Shown one piece after another: positions 8,292 through 42,733 of a stretch of 64,000 nucleotides of DNA. The stretch comes from Chondrosia reniformis (Eukaryota > Porifera > Demospongiae > Chondrillida > Chondrillidae). The notes below the pieces were generated by a model. It did not search any database. It was not told the origin of the DNA and saw only the letters and a list, made by a program, of their open reading frames with translations. The first letter of the stretch is position 1, and each line of letters opens with the position of its first letter. Location: NCBI GenBank assembly GCA_947172415.1, contig OX359199.1:1266001-1330000 (forward strand), in the 5' to 3' direction. Both the position numbers and the translations under genes were made by a program.

Positions 8292-8735
8292 CTATTGGCA
8301 ATGTTGACATACGCAATCACGTGGAGGTGATTCAAGGTTTGGTGTCCCTGATAAGAAATGCAACCTGGAGGGAGGTATTGGGATATTCTCTGAGGCCCAT
8401 TCCTTTCTACCACCTGGACAAGTATAGGTGATATTTATGGATGAAAAGACTTTCCAACCAAATGACACTGGACGGCAGCATTTACAGTTAACTCTGTATT
8501 TCACTATATCATCTGCAACGATAGCATCAACACTACTTCTACAATTTCCTGAACATTCTGCGACAATTTTGCTGTCAGATACACACTCCTCTCCATCAAA
8601 AAGTCTTATCTTTTGGACAAAGTTTGCAGTTCCACAGTTTGCCCAAACAGGTGCAGACAGAGAGAGAATGCATATGATCACCAACAAGGCAGCCGAGGTG
8701 GAGTGGTCTTTGCTGAAATGGATACTGGCTGACAT
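8292..8735 (-). CDS. Secreted cystine-knot (CTCK) protein, copy 1
   Basis: Single-exon gene of 147 residues. Residues 1-32 are a signal peptide: a short polar start, a hydrophobic stretch at 15-29 (AALLVIICILSLSAP), with cleavage likely after VWA-32. The mature protein has eleven cysteines: C34, C51, C61, C65, C84, C86, C87, C106, C141, C143 and C146. C61-SGN-C65, C84-K-C86-C87-RP, C106-PGG and C141-V-C143-QH-C146 reproduce the C-terminal cystine-knot pattern of norrin, mucins and VWF (CxGxC, CxCCRP, C-GG, CxCxxC). One N-glycosylation site, N101-IT. The protein is a CTCK domain with little else, so it is probably an extracellular, disulfide-linked ligand or matrix protein; its partner is unknown. 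This copy has G130 and E135 where most copies have E130 and K135. TATA box at 8825-8833. It is head-to-head with copy 2. Confidence 0.85.
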   Translation of the reverse strand: MSASIHFSKDHSTSAALLVIICILSLSAPVWANCGTANFVQKIRLFDGEECVSDSKIVAECSGNCRSSVDAIVADDIVKYRVNCKCCRPVSFGWKVFSSINITYTCPGGRKEWASENIPIPPSRLHFLSGTPNLESPPRDCVCQHCQ

Positions 8736-11466
8736 TGTAAGTTTAGCTCTTTCAAAGTATTCTTAGATGAGATTAGTCTTGCTCTTATTTTGCTAATTGG
8801 CTGATTACGTTTAGTTACACAGTCCTTTATATAGTATCTGACAATGTACATAATTGCCTGGAAGTATAGTACACAGTCATGTGCTAGTACAAATCTAGTG
8901 GAGCATGCAAGTACTGTGATTAGGCATTTAATAAATTCTGTATGTACATATTATATGTTCACATAATAATGAGACTATTATGTACATTATCATAATATAT
9001 GCTGTATAAAGAAGAATTAATTTTAATTATTGGACAGATAATATGTTAAGGAAAATCTACTTCACTTATACATCTTCTCTATGACTTTAGGGAGAATTTC
9101 GCAGTCTTTCAACCTTTCAAGAAACCTTTACATATTACACAAATTGTGGCCTGGACTGGTATACAACCCAAGTGATTAGAGTGAATATGAGATAAAACTG
9201 TGAAGTCTTGTCTAAAGTGTATTCTATTTAAGCATTTATATAATGGCATCTGTATTCTAATAGTAAATGACTGGTTTAATTATTTTCCAAAGCTTAATCT
9301 ACAGAAATTGGGCAGGGCTATTGTTTTCACGTTTTCACCGTGTTTTGACAACTGAATAACAACAAGTGAAAATAAATATGCATGTGTACTAGAATTATAG
9401 TTAGTATCCAATCCAATTACAACAAAATATGTATATCAAGATGTAGTCCTGAGTTTTGTCACTGGTGACTATTTAGGTTCATTTGCTTTTTGTATGTAAT
9501 TCTATTTTTAGTATGAGTATTTGCAGTTTGAATATTTGTTTCTCCTGATCATATATATATAGAAACATCATGAATAAATTATGTACCTAGAGTGTATATT
9601 AGATGATAGGAATTTCTTCTAACTGTGCCAAACTTATATTTGAGATGGATCATCTTTAGTCTTTTGAATGTTTACAGTAATTTTCTGAGCATTGGAGGTG
9701 TCAATCCTGGGGATCAGACTTAAGATGAACCATCTCAAAGATAGTGTTGATATTAATATTGTTAAAACACTGAGAACTAAAGCTAAGGTTCGAGTACATA
9801 TATGTACAGTATATGTAATACACTCTGTTGCTGGGGCAACCAAGGTAAATTATATTCCACAACCATTGTATAATATAATAAGAGACACTTTGGCCTCTTA
9901 TTATATTTATACAATGCGATATCCTGCCGATAACTAAGTAAACACCTATATAAAAACTTTCGTTTGCAAAAAGCCTAGGGGCCGAGTGTATAACTATTAT
10001 GTAAGCATGTCAGAATCCTCTCTCTCTCTCTCTATCTATACAATATTATATTTAGAGCCCTATTCTTGGGATTTTGAGATTTTAAAAAGGATGATGTCAA
10101 TATAGGAATACTCCAAGTTATGATAATAGGTAGCTAGTAGTAGGTACTGTACATAGTTATAGTTTTAAACAGCTATTCCACACTTCCCCCATGTGATTTG
10201 GAACTTTAGTTTTGCCCCCCTTCTGAGGAATATTCCAAATACAGTGCACATGAACATACGTACATACGTATGTATATAGACAATATATCGGGTGAAGAGA
10301 CCATTGGAATACCTTTATTTTAACTATTTCTGCCTCATATTCTTCAAATCGCTTCCAAAACACCTTCAACCACTTGTTTTTTGGTTGTCAGAAATTAACT
10401 GTATCTCTAGAAATTCAAAAGGCTTAAGATGAACCATCTTATATTTAAAGATAAGTTTGGAGCAGTTAGAAGAAATTTTCTATGTATATATATACTATGA
10501 TCATGAATTCATGTTGTTTCTATGATCTGCAGATGGAACACATTACTGAAACTACAAAATTACTCAAGCTAAAATACAAATACAATAGCAACTGAAACAT
10601 TATTTACGTATATATATATATATTAACCAAAACTATTGCTATATTGAATGTAGTCACCAGAGAAGTAACTCATGACTACATATCGTGTTGTTACTCATAT
10701 TGGGTACCAATTAAACTGTAATTAAATTAAATACATATTCATTTTCACTTGTTGTTATTCGGTTGTCAAATGGTGGCAAAGACAAGAGCCTTACCCAATT
10801 CCTGTAGATTAAACTTTTCAAAACTAATTAAACCAGTCATTTACTACTAGATTACTAGAATACAGATGCCATTCCTTCCTGCTTAACACACGTACTTGAT
10901 ATATGACTTTACAGTTTTACCCTACATTCACTCCAATCACTTTGGTTGCATATCAATCCAGGCCACAATTTGTATAATATGTAAAGGTTTGTGTGTACAT
11001 GTGGAATGTTAATTATTCACCATTAATGATTAGAAATCTCAGGTTGAAGGTGCTTTGAATCCAGAAAGTGATTTGAAGAATATGAGGCAAAAATCAGTAA
11101 AATGAAGTTATTTTCCAATGGTCTCTTCATCCAATATATTTTACATACATAAGCATGTATGTATGTATACATAAGCACATCGGTACTTATACGGACCTAC
11201 GTACGTATATACAGCCTAATACATAGGTACGTATGTACATTAGTACTTTAACCCATGTGATAATGCATGTACATATATACGTACACCATTATGAATGCAG
11301 ACGTGTATTTATTTGTATTTTACCACTTCTGGAGTGGACTGTATCCTCTGTGATATACAAAGCTAACGAACAATTCAGCTCAAAGATAACTACAAGAGGT
11401 CAAATTTAGAGAGAAGTCTTATTACTTTTATTTTCAGTCGCATATTGAAGACTGTTCTCACAAAGA

Positions 11467-12053
11467 ATGGAAGAGTTACAGAAAGAGGTAGCAGAATTAC
11501 AGGTAATTCAGTACACAAATACAATTATAAATATGTGTGTACTGATATATGTATACAAGTTTTCACCAGAAATTATCAATTTCTTTGAATGTACAAATGA
11601 AGGAAGAATTACTGAAGGAAATGTAGCTTAGTGGTAGAGCACTGATAGTCATAACCAGCTGTTCTGTGTTCAATTCCCGGCAATTGCTTCTTTCATTAAT
11701 TCTTCTGGTTGTTTGAGAATGATTATAGTACTAGTAATTTGATTATAATTTTGACTATTCATATCTATCGGGTATGATTATAGAGTATGTATGTGTATAA
11801 GCAGTGTGAAGTTAAACAAGTATACAAGTTGGGTTGCTAAAACTATTGTACTAATTTCCACTGCAATTCTGAACAAATTTAGGTTAAATTGGAGAATGAA
11901 CAATCAGTGGTGAGAGCCTTGAGAAGGCAGCAGTTCATAATGTTGGGAGACCAACATAAGATTGGGGACCATTTGACTAAATCTTTAGAAGACTCAGAAA
12001 AAGGACGTAACTTCAACAATCACATGCATGATTATGTTAGACTATATACATAA
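11467..12053 (+). CDS. Possible small coiled-coil gene or exon fragment
   Basis: Exon 11467-11502 encodes MEELQKEVAELQ and ends at a GTAATT donor. Exon 11883-12053 follows a TTTAG acceptor in phase 0 and encodes VKLENEQSVVRALRR and on to a stop, 68 residues in total. The first half has heptad-like L/V spacing rich in E, K and Q, typical of a coiled coil. I do not recognise a family. A donor-like GGAC/GTAACT inside exon 2 means the gene may continue differently, or this may be a stranded fragment of a larger coiled-coil gene. A tRNA-like sequence lies in the intron. Confidence 0.35.
11617..11688 (+). ncRNA. tRNA-derived sequence (tRNA-Met-like, probably pseudo or SINE)
   Basis: It has an A box (TAGCTTAGTGG, 11624-11634) and a B box (GTTCAATTCC, 11668-11677), both matching the RNA polymerase III consensus. 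The D arm folds (GCTT with GAGC) and 5 of 7 acceptor pairs form. The anticodon arm contains CAT but has a mismatch and a wrongly placed loop, so a functional tRNA is unlikely. No poly-A tail or target duplication was seen. Confidence 0.45.
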
Positions 12054-12297
12054 GTGTTTATTTCCCCCTACTGAGGTTTAGCTGCAAATATTTGTAATAC
12101 GGATGCTCATTTTAGTCTGATATATAGGGAAACCAATATATTGAGATGCTGCATCCCATACATTTTGTACAAACCATTTAATTGTAATTATTTCTCATCT
12201 TAAAAAAAACTGCACCAAATAGCTGCAGTATTTCACGTAATTAGTTTTTAATATACTTAATAATTATATATTTATACGTACGTATTCTCTTTATATT

Positions 12298-12509
12298 TTG
12301 CAAACAGAATTTATTAAATGCCTAATCACAGTACTTGCATGCTCCACTAGATTTGTACTAGCACATGACTGTGTACTATACTTCCAGGCAATTATGTACA
12401 TTGTCAGATACTATATAAAGGACTGTGTAACTAAACGTAATCAGCCAATTAGCAAAATAAGAGCAAGACTAATCTCATCTCAGAATAGTTTTAAAGAGCT
12501 AAACTTACA
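12298..12509 (+). promoter_or_regulatory. Model promoter of the cystine-knot family (copy 2)
   Basis: TATATAAAG (12412-12420) lies 98 bp before the ATG, predicting a start near 12,440 and a 5' UTR of about 70 bases. Between them TAATCAGCCAATTAGC combines a CCAAT word with flanking TAAT/ATTA homeodomain-type cores. The same block, starting about 200 bp upstream at ACAGAATTTATTAAATGCC, is kept at every copy. Copy 6 alone has TATAAAAA in place of TATATAAA. Confidence 0.6.
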
Positions 12510-12953
12510 ATGTCAGCCAGTATCCATTTCAGCAAAGACCACTCCACCTCGGCTGCCTTGTTGGTGATCATATGCATTCTCTCTCTGTCTGCACCTGTTT
12601 GGGCAAACTGTGGAACTGCAAACTTTGTCCAAAAGATAAGACTTTTTGATGGAGAGGAGTGTGTATCTGACAGCAAAATTGTCGCAGAATGTTCAGGAAA
12701 TTGTAGAAGTAGTGTTGATGCTATCGTTGCAGATGATATAGTGAAATACAGAGTTAACTGTAAATGCTGCCGTCCAGTGTCATTTGGTTGGAAAGTCTTT
12801 TCATCCATAAATATCACCTATACTTGTCCAGGTGGTAGAAAGGAATGGGCATCAGAGAATATCCCAATACCTCCCTCCAGGTTGCATTTTTTATCAGAGA
12901 CACCAAACCTTAAATCACCTCCACGTGATTGCATATGTCAACATTGCCAATAG
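12510..12953 (+). CDS. Secreted cystine-knot (CTCK) protein, copy 2
   Basis: Single-exon, 147 residues, all eleven mature cysteines present. Its protein is identical to that of copy 9, 25 kb away, and represents the array consensus (I57, D76-I77, R124, E130, K135, I142). Head-to-head with copy 1 and tail-to-tail with copy 3 (1.7 kb between stop codons). The 3' flank is A-type. Confidence 0.85.
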   Translation: MSASIHFSKDHSTSAALLVIICILSLSAPVWANCGTANFVQKIRLFDGEECVSDSKIVAECSGNCRSSVDAIVADDIVKYRVNCKCCRPVSFGWKVFSSINITYTCPGGRKEWASENIPIPPSRLHFLSETPNLKSPPRDCICQHCQ

Positions 12954-14688
12954 AGAAGCAATGGGAACCATATATATAACATGTAGAGTATGTAAATATA
13001 AACAATACTTATATTTTATATGTATATATACCTTTTTTAATGTTTAAATTCTTTTGTACATATTATATTTTATGTATAATTACATTCATGATATTTTAAA
13101 CATATATATGGCCATAATACGCTATAACATTAGTGTACATATATAGAGTATTTTATGTGCGATCTCATCCTCAATGTATTGTATTATGATCAATACCACT
13201 AATGCATGCAATGGATCAATCAAATAAGAGTAAGAATTTCTTCTCACTGAGTCAAACTTTCAGTTGCTGAAGAAGAACCCAGGGTCGAAATATTTGACCA
13301 AAAGATATGCTAAAACTGCATCTTTAGGTACTCATATAGTCAAAAATATGAATCTTCTAAAGATTTATAGGCTTATTAAAAAACAATGGATTGAAGGTAA
13401 AGGAAAACAAGTTTGTGTATATATGTACATGTATTTATATATTGGCCTTTAATTTGTATATATAATACTGTTTCGTTGTAAATAGTTAATATTCTTTGCA
13501 TAAAATGAGCTCATTTTGTCCGTACAATCCTGTTGTAGACACTTGATTTGGTAACATCTTGCTACACAAAGGCACTCTTACTTACATAGTTATGAATGTA
13601 AGAGTGATAGTGAACCAGTCCTGTCTTGTCTATACATGAAAGTTACACTTAATTGTATTTACAAGCAACCTCTGTTGGACATGGAAAAGTATATTGTCAT
13701 GCTATTATGGGATGGGAGTGTGTTGAAATGTACATATACACATTAATAGGTACATTTACATATGTTAACAAATTAGGGACTCTTAGCTAAATTGCAATCC
13801 GGTATTGGTCAACTCAGTCTTGAAGTATGTATGTTAGCTATAGTATTATCCTGTTTGTATGTTATCATTAGGGATAGGCTTACATATGTGTACACATACT
13901 TATATACAGGCTGTGTTCATCAAATTGACTCTCTGACATTTATTCAAAAAGAGATGATACATCCTGTTGTAGAAACTTGATTTGGAAACATCTTACTACA
14001 TCCAGGTATATACTATTAGATACATATGTACATACGTATTTAAGTGTATCATTAAGTCCTGTCTTGTCTGTAGATGAAAGTTACAAGCAACCTCTGTTGA
14101 ACATTTAAAAGTAAATTTTCATGCTATGGGATGGGAGTGTGTTCATACTAATTAGAACCAAACAGTATTAAGTAGTATAACACTAATATTCATATATATA
14201 TATAAAATACAAATTAAAGATCAATATATAAATACATGCATACGTATGTTATACACAAAATTTCCTTTACCTTCATTCCATTGTATTTTTAATAAGGTAT
14301 CTTTTAGAAGATTCATATTTTGATTATATGAGCATCTAAAGACACAGTTTTGGTATATATATATTTTAATCAAATGTTTCGCCCCTGGATTCTTCTTCAG
14401 CAACTGATCATGACTGTTTGACTCAGTTAGAAGAAATTCTTATTCTTACATGGTTGATCCATTGCATGAGTGATATGAATTAAGGATGAGATTGTGCATA
14501 AAATATTCTTTTTGAACATTAATGTAATCGTGTATACAAATGACCTTATATGTTTAAAATATCATGAATGTAATACATTATGAACAAAAGAATTTAAAAA
14601 TATAAATATTTACATAATATAAAATATAAGTATTGTTTATATTTACATACTCTACATGTTATATATTATATAGTTCCCATTGCATTCT
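12954..14688. repeat. Tail-to-tail spacer, copies 2/3 (A-type flanks)
   Basis: Two A-type 3' flanks face each other as an imperfect inverted repeat. Each carries the CTGAAGA...GAAA motif block (13,251-13,300 and, reversed, 14,371-14,423). A 34-base palindrome lies at 13,573-13,606 in one arm only. The short open frames here (13,264-13,452 and 14,221-14,403 reversed) are diverged repeats of each other, not convincing genes. Confidence 0.7.
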
Positions 14689-15132
14689 CTATTGACAATG
14701 TTGACATACGCAATCACGTGGAGGTGATTTAAGGTTTGGTGTCCCTGATAAGAAATGCAACTTGGAAGGAGGTATTGGGATATTCTCTGAGGCCCATTCC
14801 TTTCTACCACCTGGACAAGTATAGGTGATATTTATGGATGAAAAGACTTTCCAACCAAATGACACTGGACGGCAGCATTTACAGTTAACTCTGTATTTCA
14901 CTATATCATCTGCAACGATAGCATCAATACTACTTCTACAATTTCCTGAACATTCAGCGACAATTTTGCTGTCAAATACACACTCCTCTCCATCAAAAAG
15001 TCTTATCTTTTGGACAAAGTTTGCAGTTCCACAGTTTGCCCAAACAGGTGCAGACACAGAGAGAATGCATATGATCACCAACAAGGCAGCCGAGGTGGAG
15101 TGGTCTTTGCTGAAATGGATACTGGCTGACAT
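14689..15132 (-). CDS. Secreted cystine-knot (CTCK) protein, copy 3
   Basis: Single-exon, 147 residues, all eleven cysteines kept. Differences from the consensus are V26 in the signal peptide, F53 for S, I69 for V, K124 for R and G130 for E. TATA box at 15,222-15,230. A-type promoter side and A-type tail. Confidence 0.85.
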   Translation of the reverse strand: MSASIHFSKDHSTSAALLVIICILSVSAPVWANCGTANFVQKIRLFDGEECVFDSKIVAECSGNCRSSIDAIVADDIVKYRVNCKCCRPVSFGWKVFSSINITYTCPGGRKEWASENIPIPPSKLHFLSGTPNLKSPPRDCVCQHCQ

Positions 15133-16223
15133 TGTAAGTTTAGCTCTTTAAAACTATTCTGAGATGAGATTAGTCTTGCTCTTATTTCGCTAATTGGCTG
15201 ATTACGTTTAGTTACACAGTCCTTTATATAGTATCTGACAATGTACATAATTGCCTGGAAGTATAGTACACAGTCATGTGCTAGTACAAATCTAGTGGAG
15301 CATGCAAGTACTGTGATTAGACATTTAATAAATTCTGTTTGTATAGATTTACGAGAATACGTACGTATAAATATATAATTATTAAGTATATTAAAAAACT
15401 AATTTTGTGAAATACTGCAGCTATTTGGTGCAAAGTCATAATTTGTATTTGCTAAGAGTGTATGCATGGGTAGAAACATTATAATTATATTATTCTATAT
15501 ACATCATGCATATAACTATATGTACACACAAACCACACTATAAAATGTACAAAATATTATGATGCATGTAAATAAAAGAAATTAGAAATATGTATAATAC
15601 TAAACTACAAGTTAGGTGTCAGCAATCATGACATTTCAAATATGCTATGATCACATTTCCTTCAGTTGGTAGTTGTCTCAAAACTGTCACTATCTCATCC
15701 TGAAGCCACCTCACCTTTCCCTACAATAATATATTATGTGACAAGGTAAAGCATTGAACATAAGCTTCATGGACAAGCCAAAATGTACATCGGTTCATGT
15801 TAAACTAACCATTAAATTAACACTCCATTGCCCTAAATCTTTATGCCAAAACATGTATACAATGGAAAATCACTGGAGTGAACTGCACCAAACCAGCCAA
15901 GGAACCAAGGTCCAATTTGGCTTGGAGGCCAAAGTCTTATTAAAAATGCATGGTAATCAGTAATCGCCTACTGGTCCATATACGTATCATAGCTTGTGAA
16001 CAGGTATTGTGCATTTAACTCCCATCTTTAATATTGTGAGAGCTTAGTCTCAAATATAGACTGCAGCCTACACCTTCACTTGTTATGAAACCTTAAGTAT
16101 TCACTTGTGGTGGATTAATAAGCTCTTGAGTTCACTTTGAATTGATTGTAGGCTTTATATATATATATATATTACTAAGGATCCATATAGTCCACTCCAG
16201 AAGTGGTAACATAATGGGGTATG

Positions 16224-17083
16224 TACGGTACGCGTCAAAAGTAACGCTTATACTCGCGAGACTCGAGTGCGAGTGCCTCGACGAGACGAGTGATAACCTC
16301 GAATGATCACTCGATAAATTCTCGATCTCGAAAGGTGCTCATCGTGGGGTAAATTGACTATTATACCGAGTGATATAAATCGACACGTTTAGATGACGAT
16401 TTTGAGAAATGAGGGCGAATCACTCGGTGTGGCAAGAAATCATCTCAAGCATCACTCGACTACACCTCGATCTAATATCATTGGGAAAATACGTTCGCAT
16501 TGAGTGCTAAAAGCAACACTTTTTTAGGTGAGATATTCAAGATTTGAGAAGTGACGCTGCTATGCCAAGACTATCTCTTTATGCTAGACAAGTGACGCCG
16601 CTATGCCAAGACTATCTCTTTATACTAGACAAGTGACTCCGCTATGCAAAGACTATCTCTTTATGCTAGACAAGTGACGCCGCTATGCCAAGACTATCTC
16701 TTTATGCTAGACAAGTGACGCCGCTATGCCAAGACTATCTCTTTATACTAGACAAGTGACGCCACTATCTCTTTATGCTAGACAACGTATCGTAGTCCTT
16801 GCGACCGAACATACATGGCTGAATTAAGAAAGAATTAGCTAAGAATCAATTGAAGAATCGATTTCGGCGATATATCGATTGCTTAAGAAGTATCGACAGA
16901 GCAAAACCTTGCGAAGAAAAGATGCGAAAAATCGCCACCTACGTATTTATACCATTATCGCTTTCAGGGCCTGTCGTACGCACTCGATTTGGCCCTCGCT
17001 AAAAGCCACTCGTTAACACTCGCCTCGTCGAGGCACTCGCACTCGAATCTCGCGAGTATAAGCGTTACTTTTGACGCGTACCG
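16224..17083. mobile_element. 860-bp TIR element with internal 41-bp tandem repeat
   Basis: Terminal inverted repeats of about 70 bp with roughly two mismatches begin TACGGTACGCGTCAAAAGTA. The target duplication is TA or TATG; the ends allow both readings. The interior is noncoding, rich in ACTCG/CTCGA words near the ends, and holds six units of a 41-bp tandem repeat (16,549-16,783; the last unit is shortened). Its CpG content is clearly above that of its surroundings. Matching spacers at 11.3, 27.5, 34.5 and 39.15 kb lack the element, so it inserted after amplification or in one lineage of copies. It is a non-autonomous DNA element, superfamily unassigned. Confidence 0.75.
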
Positions 17084-17841
17084 TATATAGTCTCGTACCC
17101 AGACCGCTACTCGCCTCCATATTTATATTATGACGTCACACGGTCGGCGAGATAGGGTCTGGCATATTTCCTATGCGACAATTCTTCCACCCACGCAATC
17201 ACAAATATGCAAATAATTTATTGCACGCGCTAAATAATAAGTGTTACGCGTTCTCTCTCGGAGTTGTAGCAGAGATTCTCTGGGCTCACAAGAACTAGTT
17301 CGTGCTTCCCTTGTAAAACGCGACTGATTGCTTGTTGGTCCAACTGCAATTCGCCCAGGAACTCCGCATTCACTCCCATCGGGATAAATTTCTTCCTTTG
17401 TTCCGCCATCAGGGCTGCTAGGGGACTCAAAACCACTACAATGCTAGTAGTCGATCTTCGAATCGTGTTAAACAACGACGGAAGAACAGCGAAAATCAGC
17501 GTCTTCCCGAACCCAGTAGGAAGAGATACGAAGACATCCTTGCCTCCGCAGAATGCCAAAATCGCTTCCAGCTGCTGAGGTTTGACGTTCGTGAAGCCTA
17601 GTCGAGAAGCCGCTTCGCGGACTAACACAGATAAAGCTAGTTTACTGAGATCTTCCATTCGGCTGCGAACAGCGGCTTCACATTACGTCATCAATTAACA
17701 TTCCTCACAGTGTCCCAGCATTCCAGGACATTAACGAATTGTCGCATAGGAAATATGCCAGACCCTATCTCGCCGACCGTGTGACGTCATAATATAAATA
17801 TGGAGGCGAGTAGCGGTCTGGGTACGAGACTATACCGTATA
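17079..17841. mobile_element. Mutator-like TIR element carrying a helicase fragment
   Basis: Perfect 97-bp terminal inverted repeats (17,088-17,184 and 17,736-17,832; ends TAGTCTCGTACCC) are flanked by the 9-bp direct duplication TACCGTATA (17,079-17,087 and 17,833-17,841). It inserted into the right end of the 860-bp element, so it is the younger of the two. Long inverted repeats plus a 9-bp duplication are typical of Mutator-like elements. No transposase is present. Each repeat contains a TGACGTCA site; the one at 17,782-17,789 lies about 125 bp upstream of the helicase ATG. Confidence 0.8.
17230..17658 (-). CDS. RecQ-type helicase N-terminal fragment, transposon cargo
   Basis: 142-residue intronless frame filling most of the interior of the element. 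Residues 25-33 (VKPQQLEAI) are the RecQ motif 0 with its glutamines. Residues 46-53 (LPTGFGKT) are Walker A, 75-87 (VVLSPLAALMAEQ) are motif Ia, and 121-129 (LVLVSPENL) are the strand before the DEAH box. The frame stops before DEAH, and helicase motifs III-VI and the RQC/HRDC regions are absent, so it cannot be an active helicase. The frame is uninterrupted, which fits recent capture or selection. It may make a truncated ATP-binding protein, or it may be passive cargo. Confidence 0.75.
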   Translation of the reverse strand: MEDLSKLALSVLVREAASRLGFTNVKPQQLEAILAFCGGKDVFVSLPTGFGKTLIFAVLPSLFNTIRRSTTSIVVVLSPLAALMAEQRKKFIPMGVNAEFLGELQLDQQAISRVLQGKHELVLVSPENLCYNSERERVTLII

Positions 17842-18466
17842 TGCATTATTATATGTGCAAAATGTCATATGTACATGCATACTTATGTATTAGGTCCACT
17901 TCTGAAGAATATACTTTTGTCTAGTGACATGTATAGAATGTAGATTGTCTGCTAATTATATAAGTAGTAAGGATGTTAGGTAAGTACAAATGTGTAGATG
18001 TACGTACATTTGTAGACAATTAATTTAATATATAGACAATGTATTGGATGAAGAGAACAATTGGAATAACTTCATTTTTAGCTATTACTGCCTCAAACTG
18101 CTTCCTGGATGTCAATGACATCTGATTATTGTAAATACAAACAAATATATATGCATAAAAATAGGTTCATACATACATACACTTATACCTATTTCATATA
18201 ATACACACGATAGAACGTATATATATACGTATATGTTATTTAGGACCCCCAGCTTACATCATCCATATATAACTGCTGTAACGTTAAACTGGATCTGAAC
18301 TTAAGTCACCTTCTCTATGTGTTAAAGCAACGATAACTCAGTATATTTCTTTATAGAAAGGATTAATGCTACAAGACTGGAGCATTTTCATGGAAGATTA
18401 GAAGCAGTAATAGAATTCTAGCTTATAGGAGATTTGAGCCCTTCAGTCAGTAAGTGCAGAGTTCAG

Positions 18467-18486
18467 AGGTCAAAAGGTCATGACCC
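18467..18486 (+). promoter_or_regulatory. DR2 nuclear-receptor-type element (pair 3/4)
   Basis: AGGTCA-AA-AGGTCA (18,467-18,480) is a perfect direct repeat with a 2-bp gap. It is followed at once by TGACCC, so the second half-site also forms an inverted pair. It lies about 2.4 kb upstream of copy 4. Function is inferred from the motif only. Confidence 0.35.
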
Positions 18487-20909
18487 AACAACTTTCTGCT
18501 ACCTATCATTCTAATGGAGGAGATGGTACTCCAGGGAACAGGTCAGACTTCCAAAACAAAGCTGTATATATATATTCATCTTGGCCAGCTTATTTAACAG
18601 AAAGCTGGATCGACTGTATTTAATTGGGCCTAGAACAGCCATGTTAGAAGTTGTAAATTTTCATATCATTATATCCAAATTGTGGACTGATTTATATACA
18701 TACATATATACATACAAATAATATAATATAATATAATATTCATTATGTATATGTTTGTGCCATAATTAAACGTGAATGACACTGCATATTGCAGGAATCA
18801 GCCATCTTGGACAAGATTAAAGGCCAAATATTACTTGTCAGTATATAAATTTCATTCAGTAATTTTTTTTCCATATCTCTAGAAACAGGTCATATACAAA
18901 AAACATGTACATACAAATTTAAGATTATTTATATAGTTCTCAGTGTTTTTACAATATCAACATTCACTTCTTTTCATCTTAGTCAACACACTATGTAAAT
19001 ACTTATTTATGTACCATAGATCATGTTGTTTCTATGATCCATAGATGGAAAACATTACTGAAACTACAATACAAATACTAAAATACAATTCTCGCAAATA
19101 AAGAACTAACTACGTATATACGTATATATTGATCAAAACTAACGTTAATGAACCTAGTTGCCAGTGAAGTAACTCATGGCTACATATTGTGTTGTTATTC
19201 AAATTGGGTATACGTACTAATTAAACTGTACTTTTCAGTAAATATACATATTCATTTTCACTTATTGTTATTCAATTGTCAAAACTTGGTGAAAACAATA
19301 GCACTGCCCAATTCATGTTTTCCCAATCTCTTGTAAACTATTAATTAATTAAAAATCTCAGGTTTGAAAGTGATTATCAGGCAGCGAAAGTCTCCCTGAA
19401 GTCACAGAGAAGATGAATAAAATGAGGTAAGATATTTCTAAACATATTATCTGTCTGAAACATTGTTTGAGTCCTTTTTGCATATTCTAATGCACATGAT
19501 ATTTGATTTTCAGTTTTATTCTCTATTAAAAGACATTATGTCAAAAATTCATTGATTCTCACATATATATATAGTCAGCCAAGCAGCTAATAGAGCTACA
19601 TATATACGTATATATACGTATTAGAGTTATATGGACACATTTATAGATATGAGGATTAAACATTATATCTGCTTCAAATTTATAATTAGTGAAAAGAATG
19701 CTATCATAATCCTGATTTTCTTAGCTAAGAGAAAGACTACTTTTAGAAGGAAGAAGGTGCATGCAAGGAATTATTGGAAGAATGCCAGCAATTATGTGAG
19801 AAGCTAGAGGACTAATGAGTCTAGCTGCGAAACTATAGAAACTTGCCAAGGGAAATTAATTAATTTAAATTAACCATTTGAAAGAAGCTAAACATAAAGC
19901 TACTCATCAACTTAAGGTGATTTTAACCTTACTAAAATTTTGATGAACACACATACTTATCATGTATATAGCCAAAATTTCATCAATCAGAATAGTTTAT
20001 TCGTTCAACAAGGATGTAAATGGCACGTTAAGATTTGAAACTTACCAGCAAAAGAAGAAAATTTAAGTTAAATCATGTTCCTTTGCTGGTTTGGAGCAAT
20101 TCACTCCAGTGATTTTCCATTTGTATACATGTTTTGTCTGGTGAGAAGAAGATTTTAGGCGCGCAATGGAGTGCCAATTTGATGGTTAGTTTAACATCAA
20201 TTTAGTAATCTTTGTTGAACCGATGTATATATTGGCTTGTTCGTGAAGCTAATGTCCAATGCTTTAGCTACATACATATCCATTACAATATTATTGTAGG
20301 GAAAGGTGAGTTGGCTTCAGGGTGAGATAGAGACAGTTTTGAGGCAACTTCCAACTAAAGGAAATGTGATCATAACATACGTATTTGAAATGTTATGTTA
20401 CCTAACTTGGAGACTTAATGCTTAGCTTCTTACTTCTAATTTACATGCATCATATTATTATCATTTTTATATTTTACGTACATATACCTACATACATTTT
20501 ATATATATTATGGTTTGTGTGTATATACATACTGTAGTTATGCATTATGTATATACGTATATAGAATAACTACCCAAGCATACACTCTTGGCAAATTAAA
20601 TTATGTATTTGCCCCAAATAGCAGCAGTATTTCACATACGTAATTAGGTTTTTAATACTTATACATATACATTTATATTCTTATATTTTGTACGTACATA
20701 CAAACAGAATTTATTAAATGCCTAATCACAGTACTTGCATGCTCCACTAGATTTGTACTAGCACATGACTGTGTACTATACATCCAGGCAATTATGTACA
20801 TTGTCAGATACTATATAAAGGACTGTGTAACTAAACGTAATCAGCCAATTAGCGAAATAAGAGCAAGACTAATCTCATCTCAGAATATTTTGAAAGAGCT
20901 AAACTTACA

Positions 20910-21353
20910 ATGTCAGCCAGTATCCATTTCAGCAAAGACCACTCCACCTCGGCTGCCTTGTTGGCGATCATATGCATTCTCTCTCTGTCTGCACCTGTTT
21001 GGGCAAACTGTGGAACTGCAAACTTTGTCCAAAAGATAAGACTTTTTGATGGAGAGAAGTGTATATCTGACAGCAAAATTGTCGCTGAATGTTCAGGAAA
21101 TTGTAGAAGTAGTGTTGATGCTATCGTTGCGGATGATATAGTGAAATACAGAGTAAACTGTAAATGCTGCCGTCCAGTGTCATTTGGTTGGAAAGTCTTT
21201 TCATCCATAAATATCACCTATACTTGTCCAGGTGGTAGAAAGGAATGGGCCTCAGAGAATATCCCAATACCTCCTTCCAAGTTGCATTTCTTATCAGAGA
21301 CACCAAACCTTAAATCACCTCCACGTGATTGCGTATGTCAACATTGCCAATAG
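20910..21353 (+). CDS. Secreted cystine-knot (CTCK) protein, copy 4
   Basis: Single-exon, 147 residues, all eleven cysteines kept. Distinct from the consensus by A19 for V, K50 for E, I52 for V and K124 for R, a set shared with copy 5 that marks a subfamily. TATA box at 20,812-20,820. B-type promoter side and B-type tail running into satellite monomers. Confidence 0.85.
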   Translation: MSASIHFSKDHSTSAALLAIICILSLSAPVWANCGTANFVQKIRLFDGEKCISDSKIVAECSGNCRSSVDAIVADDIVKYRVNCKCCRPVSFGWKVFSSINITYTCPGGRKEWASENIPIPPSKLHFLSETPNLKSPPRDCVCQHCQ

Positions 21354-24273: not shown

Positions 24274-24717
24274 CTATTGACAATGTTGACATACGCAATC
24301 ACGTGGAGGTGATTTAAGGTTTGGTGTCTCTGATAAGAAATGCAACTTGGAAGGAGGTATTGGGATATTCTCTGAGGCCCATTCCTTTCTACCACCTGGA
24401 CAAGTATAGGTGATATTTATGGATGAAAAGACTTTCCAACCAAATGACACTGGACGGCAGCATTTACAGTTAACTCTGTATTTCACTATATCATCTGCAA
24501 CGATAGCATCAACACTACTTCTACAATTTCCTGAACATTCAGCGACAATTTTGCTGTCAGATATACACTTCTCTCCATCAAAAAGTCTTATCTTTTGGAC
24601 AAAGTTTGCAGTTCCACAGTTTGCCCAAACAGGTGCAGACACAGAGAGAATGCATATGATCGCCAACAAGGCAGCCGAGGTGGAGTGGTCTTTGCTGAAA
24701 TGGAAACTGGCTGACAT
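24274..24717 (-). CDS. Secreted cystine-knot (CTCK) protein, copy 5
   Basis: Single-exon, 147 residues, all eleven cysteines kept. Closest to copy 4 (A19, K50, I52, K124), with F5 for I and V26 for L. TATA box at 24,807-24,815. B-type promoter side and tail. With copy 4 it forms the only tail-to-tail junction made of satellite-bearing flanks. Confidence 0.85.
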   Translation of the reverse strand: MSASFHFSKDHSTSAALLAIICILSVSAPVWANCGTANFVQKIRLFDGEKCISDSKIVAECSGNCRSSVDAIVADDIVKYRVNCKCCRPVSFGWKVFSSINITYTCPGGRKEWASENIPIPPSKLHFLSETPNLKSPPRDCVCQHCQ

Positions 24718-28630: not shown

Positions 28631-29074
28631 ATGTCAGCCAGTATCCATTTCAGCAAAGACCACTCCACCTCGGCTGCCTTGTTGGTGATCATATGCATTC
28701 TCTCTCTGTCTGCACCTGTTTGGGCAAACTGTGGAACTGCAAACTTTGTCCAAAAGATAAGACTTTTTGATGGAGAGGAGTGTGTATCTGACAGCAAAAT
28801 TGTCGCAGAATGTTCAGGAAATTGTAGAAGTAGTGTTGATGCTATTGTTGCAGATGCTGTAGTGAAATACAGAGTTAACTGTAAATGCTGCCGTCCAGTG
28901 TCATTTGGTTGGAAAGTCTTTTCATCCATAAATATCACCTATACTTGTCCAGGTGGTAGAAAGGAATGGGCCTCAGAGAATATCCCAATACCTCCTTCCA
29001 GGTTGCATTTCTTATCAGAGACACCAAACCTTAAATCACCTCCACGTGATTGCGTATGTCAACATTGCCAATAG
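28631..29074 (+). CDS. Secreted cystine-knot (CTCK) protein, copy 6
   Basis: Single-exon, 147 residues, all eleven cysteines kept. Carries A76-V77 (DAVVKYR) in place of D76-I77, as do copies 7, 8 and 10. Its TATA box is the variant TATAAAAA (28,533-28,540). A-type promoter side and A-type tail. Confidence 0.85.
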   Translation: MSASIHFSKDHSTSAALLVIICILSLSAPVWANCGTANFVQKIRLFDGEECVSDSKIVAECSGNCRSSVDAIVADAVVKYRVNCKCCRPVSFGWKVFSSINITYTCPGGRKEWASENIPIPPSRLHFLSETPNLKSPPRDCVCQHCQ

Positions 29075-31145: not shown

Positions 31146-31589
31146 CTATTGACAATGTTGACATATGCAATCCCGTGGAGGTGATTTAAGGTTTGGTGTC
31201 CCTGATAAGAAATGCAACCTGGAGGGAGGTATTGGGATATTCTCTGATGCCCATTCCTTTCTACCACCTGGACAAGTATAGGTGATATTTATGGATGAAA
31301 AGACTTTCCAACCAAATGACACTGGACGGCAGCATTTACAGTTAACTCTGTATTTCACTACAGCATCTGCAACGATAGCATCAACACTACTTCTACAATT
31401 TCCTGAACATTCAGCGACAATTTTGCTATCAGATACACACTCCTCTCCATCAAAAAGTCTTATCTTTTGGACAAAGTTTGCAGTTCCACAGTTTGCCCAA
31501 ACAGGTGCAGACAGAGAGAGAATGCATATGATCACCAACAAGGCAGCCGAGGTGGAGTGGTCTTTGCTGAAATGGATACTGGCTGACAT
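31146..31589 (-). CDS. Secreted cystine-knot (CTCK) protein, copy 7 (mosaic flanks)
   Basis: Single-exon, 147 residues, all eleven cysteines kept. A76-V77, G130 and I142. Its upstream side (31,800-31,930, TTTGCCAA..GTGTATGCTTGGGTAG) is B-type like copies 4, 5 and 10, but its 3' flank is A-type, so the two sides have different ancestries and a crossover or conversion boundary lies in or near the gene. TATA box at 31,679-31,687. Confidence 0.85.
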   Translation of the reverse strand: MSASIHFSKDHSTSAALLVIICILSLSAPVWANCGTANFVQKIRLFDGEECVSDSKIVAECSGNCRSSVDAIVADAVVKYRVNCKCCRPVSFGWKVFSSINITYTCPGGRKEWASENIPIPPSRLHFLSGTPNLKSPPRDCICQHCQ

Positions 31590-35619: not shown

Positions 35620-36063
35620 ATGTCAGCCAGTATCCATTTCAGCAAAGACCACACTACCTCGGCTGCCTTGTTGGTGATCATATGTATTCTCTCTCTGTCT
35701 GCACCTGTTTGGGCAAACTGTGGAACTGCAAACTTTGTCCAAAAGATAAGACTTTTTGATGGAGAGGAGTGTGTATCTGACAGCAAAAGTGTCGCAGAAT
35801 GTTCAGGAAATTGTAGAAGTAGTGTTGATGCTATCGTTGCAGATGCTGTAGTGAAATACAGAGTTAACTGTAAATGCTGCCGTCCAGTGTCATTTGGTTG
35901 GAAAGTCTTTTCATCCATAAATATCACCTATACTTGTCCAGGTGGTAGAAAGGAATGGGCCTCAGAGAATATCCCAATACCTCCCTCCAGGTTGCATTTC
36001 TTATCAGAGACACCAAACCTTAAATCACCTCCACGTGATTGCATATGTCAACATTGTCAATAG
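35620..36063 (+). CDS. Secreted cystine-knot (CTCK) protein, copy 8
   Basis: Single-exon, 147 residues, all eleven cysteines kept. Differences are T12 for S, S57 for I (shared with copy 10), A76-V77 and I142. TATA box at 35,522-35,530. A-type promoter side and A-type tail, the latter with a microinversion. Confidence 0.85.
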   Translation: MSASIHFSKDHTTSAALLVIICILSLSAPVWANCGTANFVQKIRLFDGEECVSDSKSVAECSGNCRSSVDAIVADAVVKYRVNCKCCRPVSFGWKVFSSINITYTCPGGRKEWASENIPIPPSRLHFLSETPNLKSPPRDCICQHCQ

Positions 36064-37654
36064 AGAAATTAATGGGAACTATATATATATAACATGTAGA
36101 GTATGTAAATATAAACAATGCTTATGTATATATACCTTTTTTAATGTTTAAATTCTTTTGTACATATTATATTTTATGTATAATTACATTCGTGATATTT
36201 TAAACATATATATGGCCATAATACGCTATAACATTAGTGTACATTATAGAGTATTTTATGTGCGATCTCATCCTCAATGTATCGTATTATGATCAATACT
36301 ACTAATGCATGCAATGGATCAATCATATAAGAATAAGAATTTCTTCTCACTGAGTCAAACTTTCAGTTGCTGAAGAAGAACCCAGGGTCGAAATATTTGA
36401 CCAAAAGATATCCATTGTTTTTTATTAAGCCTATAAATCTTTAGAAGATTCATATTTTTGACTATATGAGTACCTAAAGATGCAGTTTTAGCATATGAAT
36501 TGAAGGTAAAGGAAAACAAGTTTGTTTATATATGTACATATATTTATATATTGGCCTTTAATTTGTATATATAATACTGTTTTGTTGTAAATAGTTAATA
36601 TTCTTTGCATCTAATGAGCTCATTTTGTCCGTACAATCCTGTTGTAGACACTTGATTTGGTAACATCTTGCTACACACAGGCACTCTTACATACATAGTT
36701 ATGTATGTAAGAGTGATAGTGAACCAGTCACTGTATACATATGTATATACATGCATATACATGTATATACATATGTAAGCCTATCCCTAATGAATTAAAC
36801 ATATGTACATACAGTCAGATAATACTATAGCTATCGTAAATAAAGTTGGTCGATACTGAATTGCAATTTTCTGTCCTAATTTGTTAACATATATAATGTA
36901 CATACGCATAAATATGTATATGTACGTATATGTACATTTGTTAGTTAATATTCATTGCATAAAATGAGCTCATTTTGTCCGTACAATCCTGTTGTAGAAA
37001 CCTGATTTGGTAACATTTTAATACATCCAGGTATATTCTATTTACATATATATGTACATACGTACGTATTTAAGTGTGTTACTGAGCCGGTCCTGTCTTG
37101 TCTGTAGATGAAGTTTGCAAGCAACCTCTGTTGAACATTTTAAAAGTATACTTTTATGCTATGGGATGGGAGTGTGTTCATACTAATTACAACCAAACAG
37201 TATTAAGAAGTATAACACATATTTAATACAAATTAAAGTTTATTAGATAAATACACGTATGTAGATACAATCCATTGTATTTTTTAATATCTTCTAGAAG
37301 ATTCATATTTTGATTATATGAGCATCTAAATACGCAGTTTTAGCATATATTTTAGTCAAATGTTTCGCCCCTGGATTCTTCTTCAGCAACTGATCATGAC
37401 TGTTTGACTCATGATCAGTTAGAAATCCTTATTTTTATATGGTTAATCCATTGCATGAGTGATATGAATTAAGGATGAGATTGTGCATAAAATACTGTTA
37501 TAGCGTATAAACGTATATGACCTTATGTTTAAAATATCATGAATGTAATACATAAAAAATAATAATATTATGTACAAAACAATTTAAAAATATAAAATAT
37601 AAGTATTGTTTATATTTGCATACTGTACATGTTATATAGTTCCCATTGCATTCT
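36064..37654. repeat. Tail-to-tail spacer, copies 8/9 (A-type flanks, microinversion)
   Basis: Inverted A-type flanks with the CTGAAGA...GAAA block near 36,351-36,400 and, reversed, at 37,355-37,408. Bases about 36,411-36,497 are flipped relative to the same flank at copy 2 (13,311-13,400). A perfect 34-base palindrome lies at 36,682-36,715. No gene seen. Confidence 0.7.
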
Positions 37655-38098
37655 CTATTGGCAATGTTGACATATGCAATCACGTGGAGGTGATTTAAGG
37701 TTTGGTGTCTCTGATAAGAAATGCAACCTGGAGGGAGGTATTGGGATATTCTCTGAGGCCCATTCCTTTCTACCACCTGGACAAGTATAGGTGATATTTA
37801 TGGATGAAAAGACTTTCCAACCAAATGACACTGGACGGCAGCATTTACAGTTAACTCTGTATTTCACTATATCATCTGCAACGATAGCATCAACACTACT
37901 TCTACAATTTCCTGAACATTCAGCGACAATTTTGCTATCAGATACACACTCCTCTCCATCAAAAAGTCTTATCTTTTGGACAAAGTTTGCAGTTCCACAG
38001 TTTGCCCAAACAGGTGCAGACAGAGAGAGAATGCATATGATCACCAACAAGGCAGCCGAGGTGGAGTGGTCTTTGCTGAAATGGATACTGGCTGACAT
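37655..38098 (-). CDS. Secreted cystine-knot (CTCK) protein, copy 9
   Basis: Single-exon, 147 residues, with the same amino-acid sequence as copy 2 in the opposite orientation. TATA box at 38,188-38,196. A-type promoter side and A-type tail. Head-to-head with copy 10. Confidence 0.85.
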   Translation of the reverse strand: MSASIHFSKDHSTSAALLVIICILSLSAPVWANCGTANFVQKIRLFDGEECVSDSKIVAECSGNCRSSVDAIVADDIVKYRVNCKCCRPVSFGWKVFSSINITYTCPGGRKEWASENIPIPPSRLHFLSETPNLKSPPRDCICQHCQ

Positions 38099-41000
38099 TG
38101 TAAGTTTAGCTCTTTCAAAGTATTCTGAGATGAGATTAGTCTTGCTCTTATTTCACTAATTGGCTGATTACGTTTAGTTACACAGTCCTTTATATAGTAT
38201 CTGACAATGTACATAATTGCCTGGAAGTATAGTACACAGTCATGTGCTAGTACAAATCTAGTGGAGCATGCAAGTACTGTTATTAGGCATTTAATAAATT
38301 CTGTTTGTATATATTAAGAGAATACGTATAAATAATTAATTATTAAGTGTATATTAATAATTATTATAACTAATTATGTGAAATACTGCAGCTATTTGGT
38401 GCAAATTTATAATTTGCATTTGCTAAGAGTGTATGAATGGGTGGAAAAATTATAATTATATTATTCTATATACATCATGCATATAACTACAGTATGTACA
38501 CACAAACCACACTATAAAATGTATGATGCATGAGAAGAAATTAGAAAAACAGTATAATATAATACTAAACTACAAGTTAGGTATCAGCAATCAGGACATT
38601 TCAAATATGCTATAATCACATTTTCTTTAGTTGGTAGTTACCTCAAAACTGTCTCTATCTCAACCTGAAGCCACCTCCCCTTTCCCTACAATAATATATT
38701 ATGTGACTAGGTAAAACATTGGACATTAGCTTCACGGACAAGCCAATATGTACATCGGTTCATGTTAAACTAACCATTAAATTGCCACTCCATTGCCTTA
38801 AATCTTTCAGCTAAAACATGTATACAATGGAAAATCACGGGAGTGAACTGCACCAAACCAGCCAAGGAACCAAGGTCCAATTTGGCTGGGAGGCCAAAGT
38901 CTTTTAAAAAAGGCAATCAGTATTCGCCTCCTTGTCCTTATACATATCATAACCTGTGAACATGTATTGTGCATTTAACTCCCATCTTTAATATTGTGAG
39001 AGCTCAGTCTCAAATATAGACTGCAGCCTACACCTCCACTTGTTATAAAACCACAAGTGTTCACTTGTGGTGGATTAATAAGCTCTTGAGTTCATTTTGA
39101 ATTGTTTGTAAGCTTTATATATCACAGAGGATCCATATAGGCCACTCCAGAAGTGGTAAAATACAAATAAGTACATGTGTACATTCATAATGCATCACTA
39201 TATGTGAAAAATGTTATATGTACATGCGTACTTATGTATTAGGTCCACTTCTGAAGAATATACTTGTCTAGTGACATGTTAGAATGTAGATTGTCTGCTA
39301 ATTATATAAGTAGTAAGGATGAAAATATTATATAGGTAAGTACAAATGTGTAGATGTACGTACATTTGTAGACAATTAATTTAATATATAGACAATGTAT
39401 TGGATGAAGAGAACAATTGGAATAACTTCATTTTTAACTATTACTGCCTCAAACTGTTTCCTGGATATCAATGACATCTGATTATTTTAAATACAAACCA
39501 AATATATATGCATAAAAATAGGTTCATACATACATACACTTATACCTATTTCATATAATACACACGATAGAACGGATATATACAGTATGTATATGTTATT
39601 TAGGACCCGCTTACATCATCCATATATAACTGCTGTAACGTTATACTGGATCTGAACTTAAGTCACCCTCTCTATGTGAGTGTTAAAGCAACGGTAACTC
39701 AGTATATTCCTTTATAGAAAGGATTAATGCTACAAGACTGGAGCATTTTCATGGAAGATTAGAAGCAGTAATAGGATTCTAGCTTATGGTAGATTTGAGC
39801 CCTTCAGTCAGTGAGTGCAGAGTTCAGAGGTCAAAAGGTCATCACCCAACAACTTTCTACTACCTGTCATCCTAATGGAGGAGATGGTAATACTTGGTAG
39901 AATAGGAACTCCAGGGAACGGGTCAGACTTCCAAAACAAAGCTATATTCATCTTGGCCAGCCTATTTAAGAAAAAGCTAGATCGACTGTATTTAATTGGA
40001 CCTAGAACAGCCATGTTAGCTGTTGTAAATTATAATATCCAAATATCCAAAATGTGGACTGATTTACATATATACATATGTACTTATAATATGCAGACAT
40101 ATTCATTATGTATATATGTTTGTGCCATAATTAAACGTGAATGACACTGAGTGTGACACAATTAGACCACATGTTGCAGGAATCAGCCCTCTTGGACAAG
40201 AAAAGAGGCCAAATATTACTTGTCAGTCTATAAATTTCATTCAGTAATCTTTTTTACTTCTTTCGCTCCATATCTCTAGAAACAGGTCGTATACAAAAAA
40301 CATGTAAATACAAATTTAAGATTATTTATATAGTTCTCAGTGTTTTACAATATCAACGTACACTTCTTTTCATCTTAGTCAACACACTATGTAAATACTT
40401 ATATATGTACTATAGATCATGTTTTTTCTATGATCCATATATAGATGGAACACATTACTGAAACTACAAATACTAAAATACAAATACAATTCTAGCAAAT
40501 AAAGAACTAACTACGTATATACGTATATATTGATCAAAACTAATGTTAATGAACCTAGTCACCAGTGAAGTAACTCATGATTACATATTGTGTTGTTATT
40601 CAAATTGGGCATACGTACTAATTAAACTGTACTTTTTAGTAAATATACATATTCATTTTCACTTATTGTTATTCAATTGTCAAACCTTGGTGAAAACAAT
40701 AGCACTGCCCAATTCATGTTTTCCCAATCTCTTGTAAACTATTAATTAATTAAAAATCTCAGGTTGAAATTGAGTATCAGGCATCTCCCTGAAGTCACAG
40801 AGAAGATGAATAAAATGAGGTAAGATATTTCTAAACATATTATCTGTCTGAAACATTGTTTGAGTCCTTTTTGCATATTCTAATGCACATAATATTTGAT
40901 TTTCAGTTTTATTCACTGTTAAAAGACATTATGTCATAAATTCATTGATTCTCACATATATAGTCATCCAAGCAGCTAATAGAGCTACTGTACATATATA

Positions 41001-42289
41001 CGTACATATACGTATTAGAGTTATATGGACACATTTATAAATATGAGGGTTAAACGAAATATCTGCTTCAAATTTATAATTAGTGAAAAGAATGCTATCA
41101 TAATCCTGATTTTCTTATCTAAGAGAAAAACTACTTTTAGAAGGAAGAAGGTTCATGCAAGGAATTATTGGAAGAATGCCAGCAATTATGTGAGAAGCTA
41201 GAGGACTAATGAGTCTAGTTGCCAAACTATAGAAATTTGCTAAAGGGAAATTAATTAATTTAAATTAATCATTTGAAAGAACCCAAACATAAAGCTACTC
41301 ATCAACTTAAGATGATTTTAACCTTACTGAAATTTTGATGAACACACATATTTATCATGTATATAGCCAAAATTTCATCAATCAGAATAGTTTATTCGTT
41401 CAACAAGGATGAAAATGGCACGTTAAGATTTAAAACTTCACAGCATAAGAAGAAAATTTAAGTTAAATCATGTTACTTGGCTGGTTTGGAGATTTTCCAT
41501 TTGTATATGTGTTTTGTCTGGTGAGAAGAAGATTTGAGGCGCACAATGGAGTGCCAATTTAATGGTTAGTTTAACATCAAGTTTGTAATCTTTGTTGAAC
41601 AGATGTACATATTGGCTTGTTCGTGAAGCTAATGTCCAATGCTTTAGCTACATACATATCCATTACAATATTATTGGAGGGAAAGGTGCATGGCTTCAGG
41701 TTGAGATAGAGACAGTTTTGAAGGCAACTTCCAACTAAAGGAAATGTGATCATAACATACGTATTTGAAATGTTATGTTTGCTGACACCTAACTTGGAGC
41801 TTAATGTTTCTTAATTCTAATTTACATACATCATATTATTATTATTTTTATATTATACGTACATATACGTACATACATTTTATATTATAGTTTGTGTGTA
41901 TATACATACTGTAGTTATGCATTATTTATATACGTATATACGTAGAATATCTATACCCAAGCATACACTCTTGGCAAATTAAATTAATGAATTTGCCCCA
42001 AATAGCTGCAGTATTTCACATAATTAGTTTTTTAATACTTATACATATACATTTATTCTCTTATATTTTGTACTTACATACAAACAGAATTTATTAAATG
42101 CCTAATCACAGTACTTGCATGCTCCACTAGATTTGTACTAGCACATGACTGTGTATTATACTTCCAGGCAATTATGTACATTGTCAGATACTATATAAAG
42201 GACTGTGTAACTAAACGTAATCAGCCAATTAGCGAAATAAGAGCAAGACTAATCTCATCTCAGAATACTTTGAAAGAGCTAAACTTACA
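38099..42289. repeat. Head-to-head spacer, pair 9/10
   Basis: Inverted promoter arms and an asymmetric centre in the same orientation as pair 3/4. Exon fragments lie near 39,720 (RINATRLEHFHGRLEAVI) and 40,178 (ESALLDK), with KEEGSCKELLEECQQLCEKL at 41,141-41,209 on the plus strand. At 39,140-39,180 it preserves the uninterrupted site corresponding to the transposon insertion at 16.22 kb. Confidence 0.7.
39828..39847 (+). promoter_or_regulatory. DR2 nuclear-receptor-type element (pair 9/10)
   Basis: AGGTCA-AA-AGGTCA (39,828-39,841) is kept exactly. The following TGACCC of the other two copies has changed to TCACCC. Confidence 0.35.
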
Positions 42290-42733
42290 ATGTCAGCCAG
42301 TATCCATTTCAGCAAAGACCACTCCACCTCGGCTGCCTTGTTGGTGATCATATGCATTCTCTCTCTGTCTGCACCTGTTTGGGCAAACTGTGGAACTGCA
42401 AACTTTGTCCAAAAGATAAAACTTTTTGATGGAGAGGAGTGTGTATCTGACAGCAAAAGTGTCGCTGAATGTTCAGGAAATTGTAGAAGTAGTGTTGATG
42501 CTATCGTTGCAGATGCTGTAGTGAAATACAGAGTTAACTGTAAATGCTGCCGTCCAGTGTCATTTGGTTGGAAAGTCTTTTCATCCATAAATATCACCTA
42601 TACTTGTCCAAGTGGTAGAAAGGAATGGGCCTCAGAGAATATCCCAATACCTCCCTCCAGGTTGCATTTCTTATCAGAGACACCAAACCTTAAATCACCT
42701 CCACGTGATTGCGTATGTCAACATTGTCAATAG
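42290..42733 (+). CDS. Secreted cystine-knot (CTCK) protein, copy 10
   Basis: Single-exon, 147 residues, all eleven cysteines kept. The most distinct protein: K44 for R, S57 for I, A76-V77, and S108 for G, which breaks the otherwise invariant C-P-G-G turn after C106. TATA box at 42,192-42,200. B-type tail leading into the large satellite, so this is the right-hand end of the gene array. Confidence 0.85.
   Translation: MSASIHFSKDHSTSAALLVIICILSLSAPVWANCGTANFVQKIKLFDGEECVSDSKSVAECSGNCRSSVDAIVADAVVKYRVNCKCCRPVSFGWKVFSSINITYTCPSGRKEWASENIPIPPSRLHFLSETPNLKSPPRDCVCQHCQ

Follow-up and report, generated by a model that had tools for sequence, protein, structure and literature searches.

An alternating array of near-identical genes for a putative cystine-knot protein, apparently homogenised by gene conversion, in the sponge Chondrosia reniformis

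Cystine-knot hormones (CKHs) have been described by Roch and Sherwood (2014) in three sponges; they have the Burs/NDP cysteine pattern and a short C-terminus, in some cases also a short N-terminus, and candidate LGR receptors were described together with them (PMC4079206). In a system of another kind, the hsp70 gene cluster of Stratiomys singularior, the coding parts are homogenised by conversion, homology extends about 200 bp upstream, an inverted pair is the basic unit, and the spacers contain transposons and deletions (PMC3071340). In this work we analysed a 64 kb window of the Chondrosia reniformis genome (chromosome 11 (C11), positions 1266001-1330000), in which ten near-identical genes encoding a putative secreted cystine-knot protein alternate strictly in strand, an eleventh lying 4 kb past the window end.

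The predicted protein resembles the sponge CKHs as they are outlined in that report: it would be secreted by a sponge, the signal peptide is followed by a short N-terminus, a feature of some CKHs, the cysteines follow the Burs/NDP pattern and the C-terminus is short, the likeness being one of described pattern and not of direct sequence comparison. A difference is that it is encoded by a multi-copy array, for which no report was found. The order of the cysteines is also that of Norrin (NDP), bursicon, NBL1 and the CTCK domain of VWF, with sequence matches at the edge of detection; NBL1 is without one of the cysteines (PMC4079206). With the Stratiomys cluster the array has in common the homogenised coding parts, the upstream homology, the inverted pair and the interrupted spacers, and differs from its four tandem copies plus one inverted copy in having eleven strictly alternating copies of a gene for an unrelated, secreted protein. 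Among the systems compared, this cluster is the nearest known evolutionary parallel. Searches of one literature library for Chondrosia reniformis with cystine knot, and for Porifera with cystine-knot and norrin, returned no report, and no array of this kind was evident there from titles and the openings of abstracts. The kind of protein and the process of conversion are both known; the eleven-copy alternating array appears to be unusual and undescribed.

A preliminary description of this DNA had reported ten intact genes of 147 codons in strict strand alternation, with eleven mature cysteines per copy and identical proteins encoded by the second and ninth copies, and all of this was confirmed. 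The copies were named g1 to g11 along C11, g1-g10 lying within the window. The open reading frames (ORFs) on the minus strand are g1 (8292..8735), g3 (14689..15132), g5 (24274..24717), g7 (31146..31589) and g9 (37655..38098), and those on the plus strand g2 (12510..12953), g4 (20910..21353), g6 (28631..29074), g8 (35620..36063) and g10 (42290..42733), so that the order from g1 to g10 is - + - + - + - + - +. All ten have 147 codons and are intact, and each is uninterrupted within the ORF. Eleven mature cysteines were counted in each of the ten products, and the translations of g2 and g9, whose starts (12510 and 37655) are about 25 kb apart, are the same. With g11 (C11:1334032-1334478, minus strand, at about 68.03 kb on the window scale) included, alternation holds in 11 of 11 copies. 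Eleven independent orientations would alternate by chance with p of about 1/1024, a figure to be read with the reservation that the orientations are not independent, the unit being a divergent pair (see below). When the whole genome (117,379,552 bases in 15 contigs, i.e. 14 chromosomes and the mitochondrion) was searched with one array copy, 14 matches were obtained from 16 candidates. Twelve of these are full-length copies, the twelfth being located on chromosome 8 (C8:2724976), and in all twelve the ORF is open to the stop. Antisense to seven of the ten copies there is an open frame of 122 amino acids (e.g. 20849-21217), which may follow from the conservation of the sequence and was not counted as a gene.

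The part that the copies share most closely is a cassette of about 0.7 kb, consisting of 207 bp of upstream sequence with a TATA motif, the ORF and a little 3' sequence, over which they are about 97% alike. In 100-bp bins, the mean pairwise difference between the ten copies was 1.5-2.9% from -200 to +400 and 6% from +400 to +500, and in the remaining bins between -1300 and +1500 it amounted to 21-60% (30-45 pairs per bin, the far bins including non-homologous sequence). The left edge of the cassette is at about -207, with small indels shifting it in g11 and in the C8 copy; on the right, most matches of g1, g11 and the C8 copy stop 20-55 bp beyond the stop codon. For g1, and near the gene also for g11 and the C8 copy, homology breaks off sharply at these edges. 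In g2-g10 homology of lower identity continues outside the cassette, on one side or on both, and in g11 it resumes at about -0.85 to -1.17 kb. In the conserved upstream part, which for g2 occupies 12303..12509 on the plus strand, TATATAA stands at -98 of the ATG; the motif, TATATAA or TATAAAA, has the position -98 in each of the ten array copies, and g11 and the C8 copy have it at -102 and -87, respectively. Because the upstream 200 bp differ from those of g11 by 3.3-3.7%, less than the synonymous sites do (8.4%), some selection on the promoter is likely.

Cassettes and flanks tell different histories. The flanks were compared between g3-g10, the eight copies in which they are homologous (upstream flank, -800 to -210), and on the basis of the flank alignments two types were named: A (g4, g5, g7 and g10) and B (g3, g6, g8 and g9), the assignment of g8 referring to its upstream flank and g7 being a mosaic of type A upstream and a downstream flank nearest to that of g8. 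In the tree of the upstream flanks the A/B split had a support of 1.000, and the mean difference was 0.100 within and 0.217 between types. The corresponding values for the cassettes of the same copies were 0.027 and 0.026, with no A/B split. Among the 35 possible splits, A/B ranked first for the upstream flank, second for the downstream flank and 24th for the cassette; the two flank ranks are partly given by construction, as the types were named from the flanks, whereas the cassette rank is independent. Synonymous divergence (dS) in the cassette was 0.0398 within types (12 pairs) and 0.0376 between types (16 pairs), and in 40 of the 45 pairs of array copies the alignable flank exceeded 300 bp; 39 of these 40 pairs showed a dS below the flank divergence. 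The four-gamete test failed in 105 of the 276 pairs formed by 24 informative cassette sites, with an Rm of 11, i.e. at least 11 recombination events in the cassette if sites mutate once. The homogenised cassette, the diverged flanks, the discordant trees and the recombination are the marks of concerted evolution by gene conversion. Ectopic gene conversion accounts for them, which protein selection alone does not, because synonymous sites are homogenised too. The maintenance of the copies by gene conversion, as suggested in the preliminary description, is thus supported. Groups of neighbouring genes in the cassette tree were dropped as evidence of conversion, since cassette divergence showed no increase with separation in gene order (Mantel r 0.04, p 0.42).

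The ten genes in the window form five divergent pairs, g1/g2, g3/g4, g5/g6, g7/g8 and g9/g10, with start codons 3.8-5.8 kb apart. With approximate limits, these are P1 (8000..13600, without assigned direction), P2 (13600..22200, plus; g3 type B, g4 type A), P3 (23700..30100, minus; g5 type A, g6 type B), P4 (30100..36700, minus; g7 and g8) and P5 (36700..43700, plus; g9 type B, g10 type A). P2 matches P5 directly and P3 matches P4, both of the latter being inverted relative to P2 and P5 (> < < >), and each of the four is self-inverted over 1.5-2.0 kb at 82-85% identity. P1 is atypical in that it matches the other units strongly only in its two cassettes and in the sequence flanking g2. Besides short weak matches, g1 shares only the cassette (about 8265-8942) at 96-98%, its near flanks differing from those of the other copies, and g2 shares longer flanks. 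Between g3 and g4, P2 is broken by an insert (about 16214-17836), which carries a DEAD-box helicase-like fragment (Pfam DEAD, E 3.2e-12) and a perfect 99-bp inverted repeat (17086-17184 and 17736-17834).

The strict alternation needs no further rule, because genes arranged as a series of divergent pairs alternate in strand regardless of the direction of each pair. In the simplest reading a single inverted duplication would have given rise to the pair, which would then have been copied in both directions, and the unit structure of P2-P5 supports the amplification of an inverted pair that had been proposed. The likeness to ampliconic palindromes, suggested at the same time, held in part. Inverted arms do exist at the convergent junctions, with lengths of about 4 kb at g4|g5 (84-94% identity), 2.4 kb at g8|g9 (92%), 1.25 kb at g2|g3 (88.5%) and 1.8 kb at g6|g7 (82%). 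The arms are, however, unequal (1.25-4 kb at 82-94%) and the units run in mixed direction, so that the long inverted arms of high identity, separated by a spacer, which characterise an ampliconic palindrome were not found.

Read from the sequence, the hydrophobic N-terminus of the 147-residue protein ends in VWA right before the first mature cysteine, and the CxGxC, CxCC and C-terminal CxCxxC motifs are present. A total of 11 cysteines is shared with Norrin and with the CTCK domain of VWF. Norrin activates Frizzled-4 and forms a disulfide-linked dimer, and its cysteines that pair between chains have counterparts in the array sequence. The Pfam DAN family was matched by all ten array copies (E 0.00022-0.0017); among ten shuffled g2 controls, five shuffled fully and five with the cysteines fixed, none matched DAN and one matched an unrelated family (E 0.026). 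In comparisons with the PDB, g2 was the one array copy used as a single query, and its sole match was Norrin (E 0.056); a profile of six family members found NBL1 (E 0.0042) and bursicon (E 0.05), aligned along the cysteines. These motifs and matches, together with the recurrence of the cysteine order in paralogues (see below), support the norrin/VWF-type pattern named in the preliminary description. With its predicted signal peptide, short N- and C-termini and bare domain the protein has the layout expected of a CKH, and it appears to fit the Norrin/bursicon-like kind found in sponges, although profile scores are weak; the fold would be that of a CTCK domain. Stretches with the cysteine pattern occurred also in bacterial and archaeal contigs (54) and in viral contigs (45), none of them being a relative by tblastn.

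Selection on the protein was estimated from the same ORFs. Nonsynonymous divergence (dN) in the array was 0.017 and dS 0.040 (45 pairs), giving a dN/dS of 0.42, and relative to g11 the values were 0.058 and 0.084, with a ratio of about 0.69. Of 29 changes within the array 17 were nonsynonymous and 12 synonymous, where 21.6 nonsynonymous ones were expected (P 0.047). Purifying selection within the array is weak. The rapidly changing factor envisaged in the preliminary description is at variance with a dN lower than dS, and rapid diversification of the array protein is not supported. The high-dose factor named there as the other possibility would fit.

Elsewhere in the genome, the twelfth copy sits inside a segmental duplication of the g11 side: C8:2710996-2727897 matches 65557-82532 of the window scale on C11 with 95.8% identity over about 17 kb, more blocks extend leftwards up to the limit of the 40 kb compared, and the right part is rearranged. 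The ancestral single gene may have been close to the g11 type. On chromosome 7 (C7:4419545-4419769) lies a truncated, stop-containing relic of the gene, left out of the ORF count above, which shows about 72-85% homology to the array over coding and upstream sequence; a frame near it was judged by eye to be reverse-transcriptase-like. Two distant paralogues were also found, one on chromosome 1 (C1) with E 8.4e-5 in the search with an array copy, and one at C8:3878921 with E 5.8e-5 in a search with the C1 protein. Each consists of a single open frame with a hydrophobic N-terminus, and the 11 cysteines of the mature part follow the array order; their spacing between Cys8 and Cys9 is 16 and 18 positions as against 35 in the array type.

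The sequence that follows g10 is a 170-bp satellite, which fills more than 20 kb between g10 and g11 in one orientation (43001-64000, continuing to about 66057); Tandem Repeats Finder counted 116 copies in 44327-64000, and short pieces occur also 3' of g4 and g5. It is not specific to the array, having at least 286 matches genome-wide, those listed being on C2, C4, C5, C6, C7, C11 and C14. Two similar inserts of about 1 kb interrupt it (about 48361-49427 and 60861-61941), with near-identical ORFs of 123 and 122 amino acids; the ORF of the first had no Pfam match. To the left of the array, at 5950-6468, there is an ORF in which Pfam recognises a DOMON domain (E 1.8e-10).

Taking these observations together, we consider it fairly probable (about 0.65) that the locus is a lineage-specific array of genes of the CKH kind, produced by duplication of pairs, kept alike by conversion confined to the cassette and serving a higher dose of the ligand. 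One gene with an uninterrupted ORF would have been duplicated inversely, giving a divergent pair with flank types A and B, and several duplications of the pair in both directions would have produced the strand alternation automatically. Ectopic conversion, acting mainly within the cassette, would hold the identity of the copies at about 97% as their flanks drift apart. The secreted protein, probably a disulfide-linked dimer by analogy with Norrin, would act as an extracellular ligand. Transcribed presumably from the TATA promoter, the array would raise the dosage of this ligand, which is its likeliest role.

A number of results weigh against this reading. The DAN scores of the ten array copies (18.7-21.6 bits) are all under the Pfam cut-off of 22, so that the protein does not qualify as a member of DAN, and of the other sequences scanned, namely the C8 copy and both distant paralogues, none matched this family. 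With a profile built from 13 mostly near-identical sequences, the PDB yielded no match even at E values of up to 10. Two AlphaFold models of proteins from the window were too poor to use (mean predicted local distance difference test scores of 47.7 and 50.3), and none of the Foldseek matches obtained with them reached E 0.001; the top ones (interleukin-12/23, adaptin ear and antibody chains) were taken as meaningless. The second C8 paralogue is tied to the array copies at E 0.008-0.11 only (1.5e-4 to the C1 protein). In the PDB the C1 paralogue had VWF as best match at E 0.075, and the second C8 paralogue a ribosomal protein at E 0.001, which we took as chance, followed by GDF5 (0.68) and VWF (2.7). 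Over the whole genome the Pfam DAN and Cys_knot profiles had no match above cut-off and one sub-threshold Cys_knot match on C7, and since 14 control genomes were likewise silent, absence is not established by this. Purifying selection is weak, as mentioned above, and with no effect of gene order, preferential conversion between neighbours is unsupported.

Other explanations were considered. If there were no conversion, and purifying selection on promoter and protein kept the cassettes alike, one would expect the open ORFs of all 12 full-length copies and the upstream 200 bp that differ from g11 less than synonymous sites do. This is very unlikely, since synonymous sites are equally homogenised (0.038 between types) while homologous upstream flanks differ by 22%, 105 of the 276 site pairs are incompatible and the constraint on amino acids is weak; the dS values have in fact already largely refuted it. 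That the cassette is a mobile or retroposed unit, inserted repeatedly at different sites, is suggested by the sharp ends of homology in g1 and, near the gene, in g11 and the C8 copy. Homology in g2-g10 nevertheless passes the cassette at lower identity and that of g11 resumes upstream, the TATA motif is included, unlike in a retrocopy, and the alignment, inspected by eye, revealed neither a poly-A tail nor terminal repeats in common where the cassettes end. Moreover, the C8 copy lies within the block of about 17 kb and thus did not arrive as a cassette, and we regard insertion of a mobile unit as quite unlikely. Inverted repeats are difficult to assemble, and four haplotypic duplications were removed during assembly of this genome (PMC12181767), so that inverted haplotypes or collapsed repeats could have been placed side by side. 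An artefact of this sort seems highly improbable, as the flanks of the copies differ by about 5-22%, in our judgement more than sequencing error or the difference between two haplotypes would produce, the window contains no N, and the assembly was made from PacBio HiFi data at about 70x with a quality value (QV) of 69.8 (PMC12181767). The 10.31 Gb of HiFi data came from 0.80 million reads (PMC12181767), which gives an average read length of about 13 kb, more than the extent of one pair.

Two further explanations concern the function of the array. That positive selection diversifies the array into a range of ligands or defence peptides would be compatible with dN/dS ratios that indicate no strong constraint, both in the array and relative to g11, and with recombination shuffling variants between copies; with mean dN below dS, all 11 cysteines kept in ten of ten copies and two of the ten proteins identical, it is unlikely. 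It is very doubtful, too, that the array is a conversion-driven reservoir in which variants of a dimeric ligand are reshuffled between individuals, so that each sponge would have its own ligand mix, e.g. for self-recognition or the control of microbes.

If the array of CKH-kind genes is read as proposed here, one sponge genome, representing an early animal lineage, contains at least twelve copies of a hormone-like cystine-knot gene. The locus is also a clear-cut example, within inverted pairs, of gene conversion restricted to a single gene and its core promoter. In the part of the report on sponge CKHs that was used here no function is assigned to them (PMC4079206), and a sponge with a whole array for a single CKH would offer a place to test what CKHs do.

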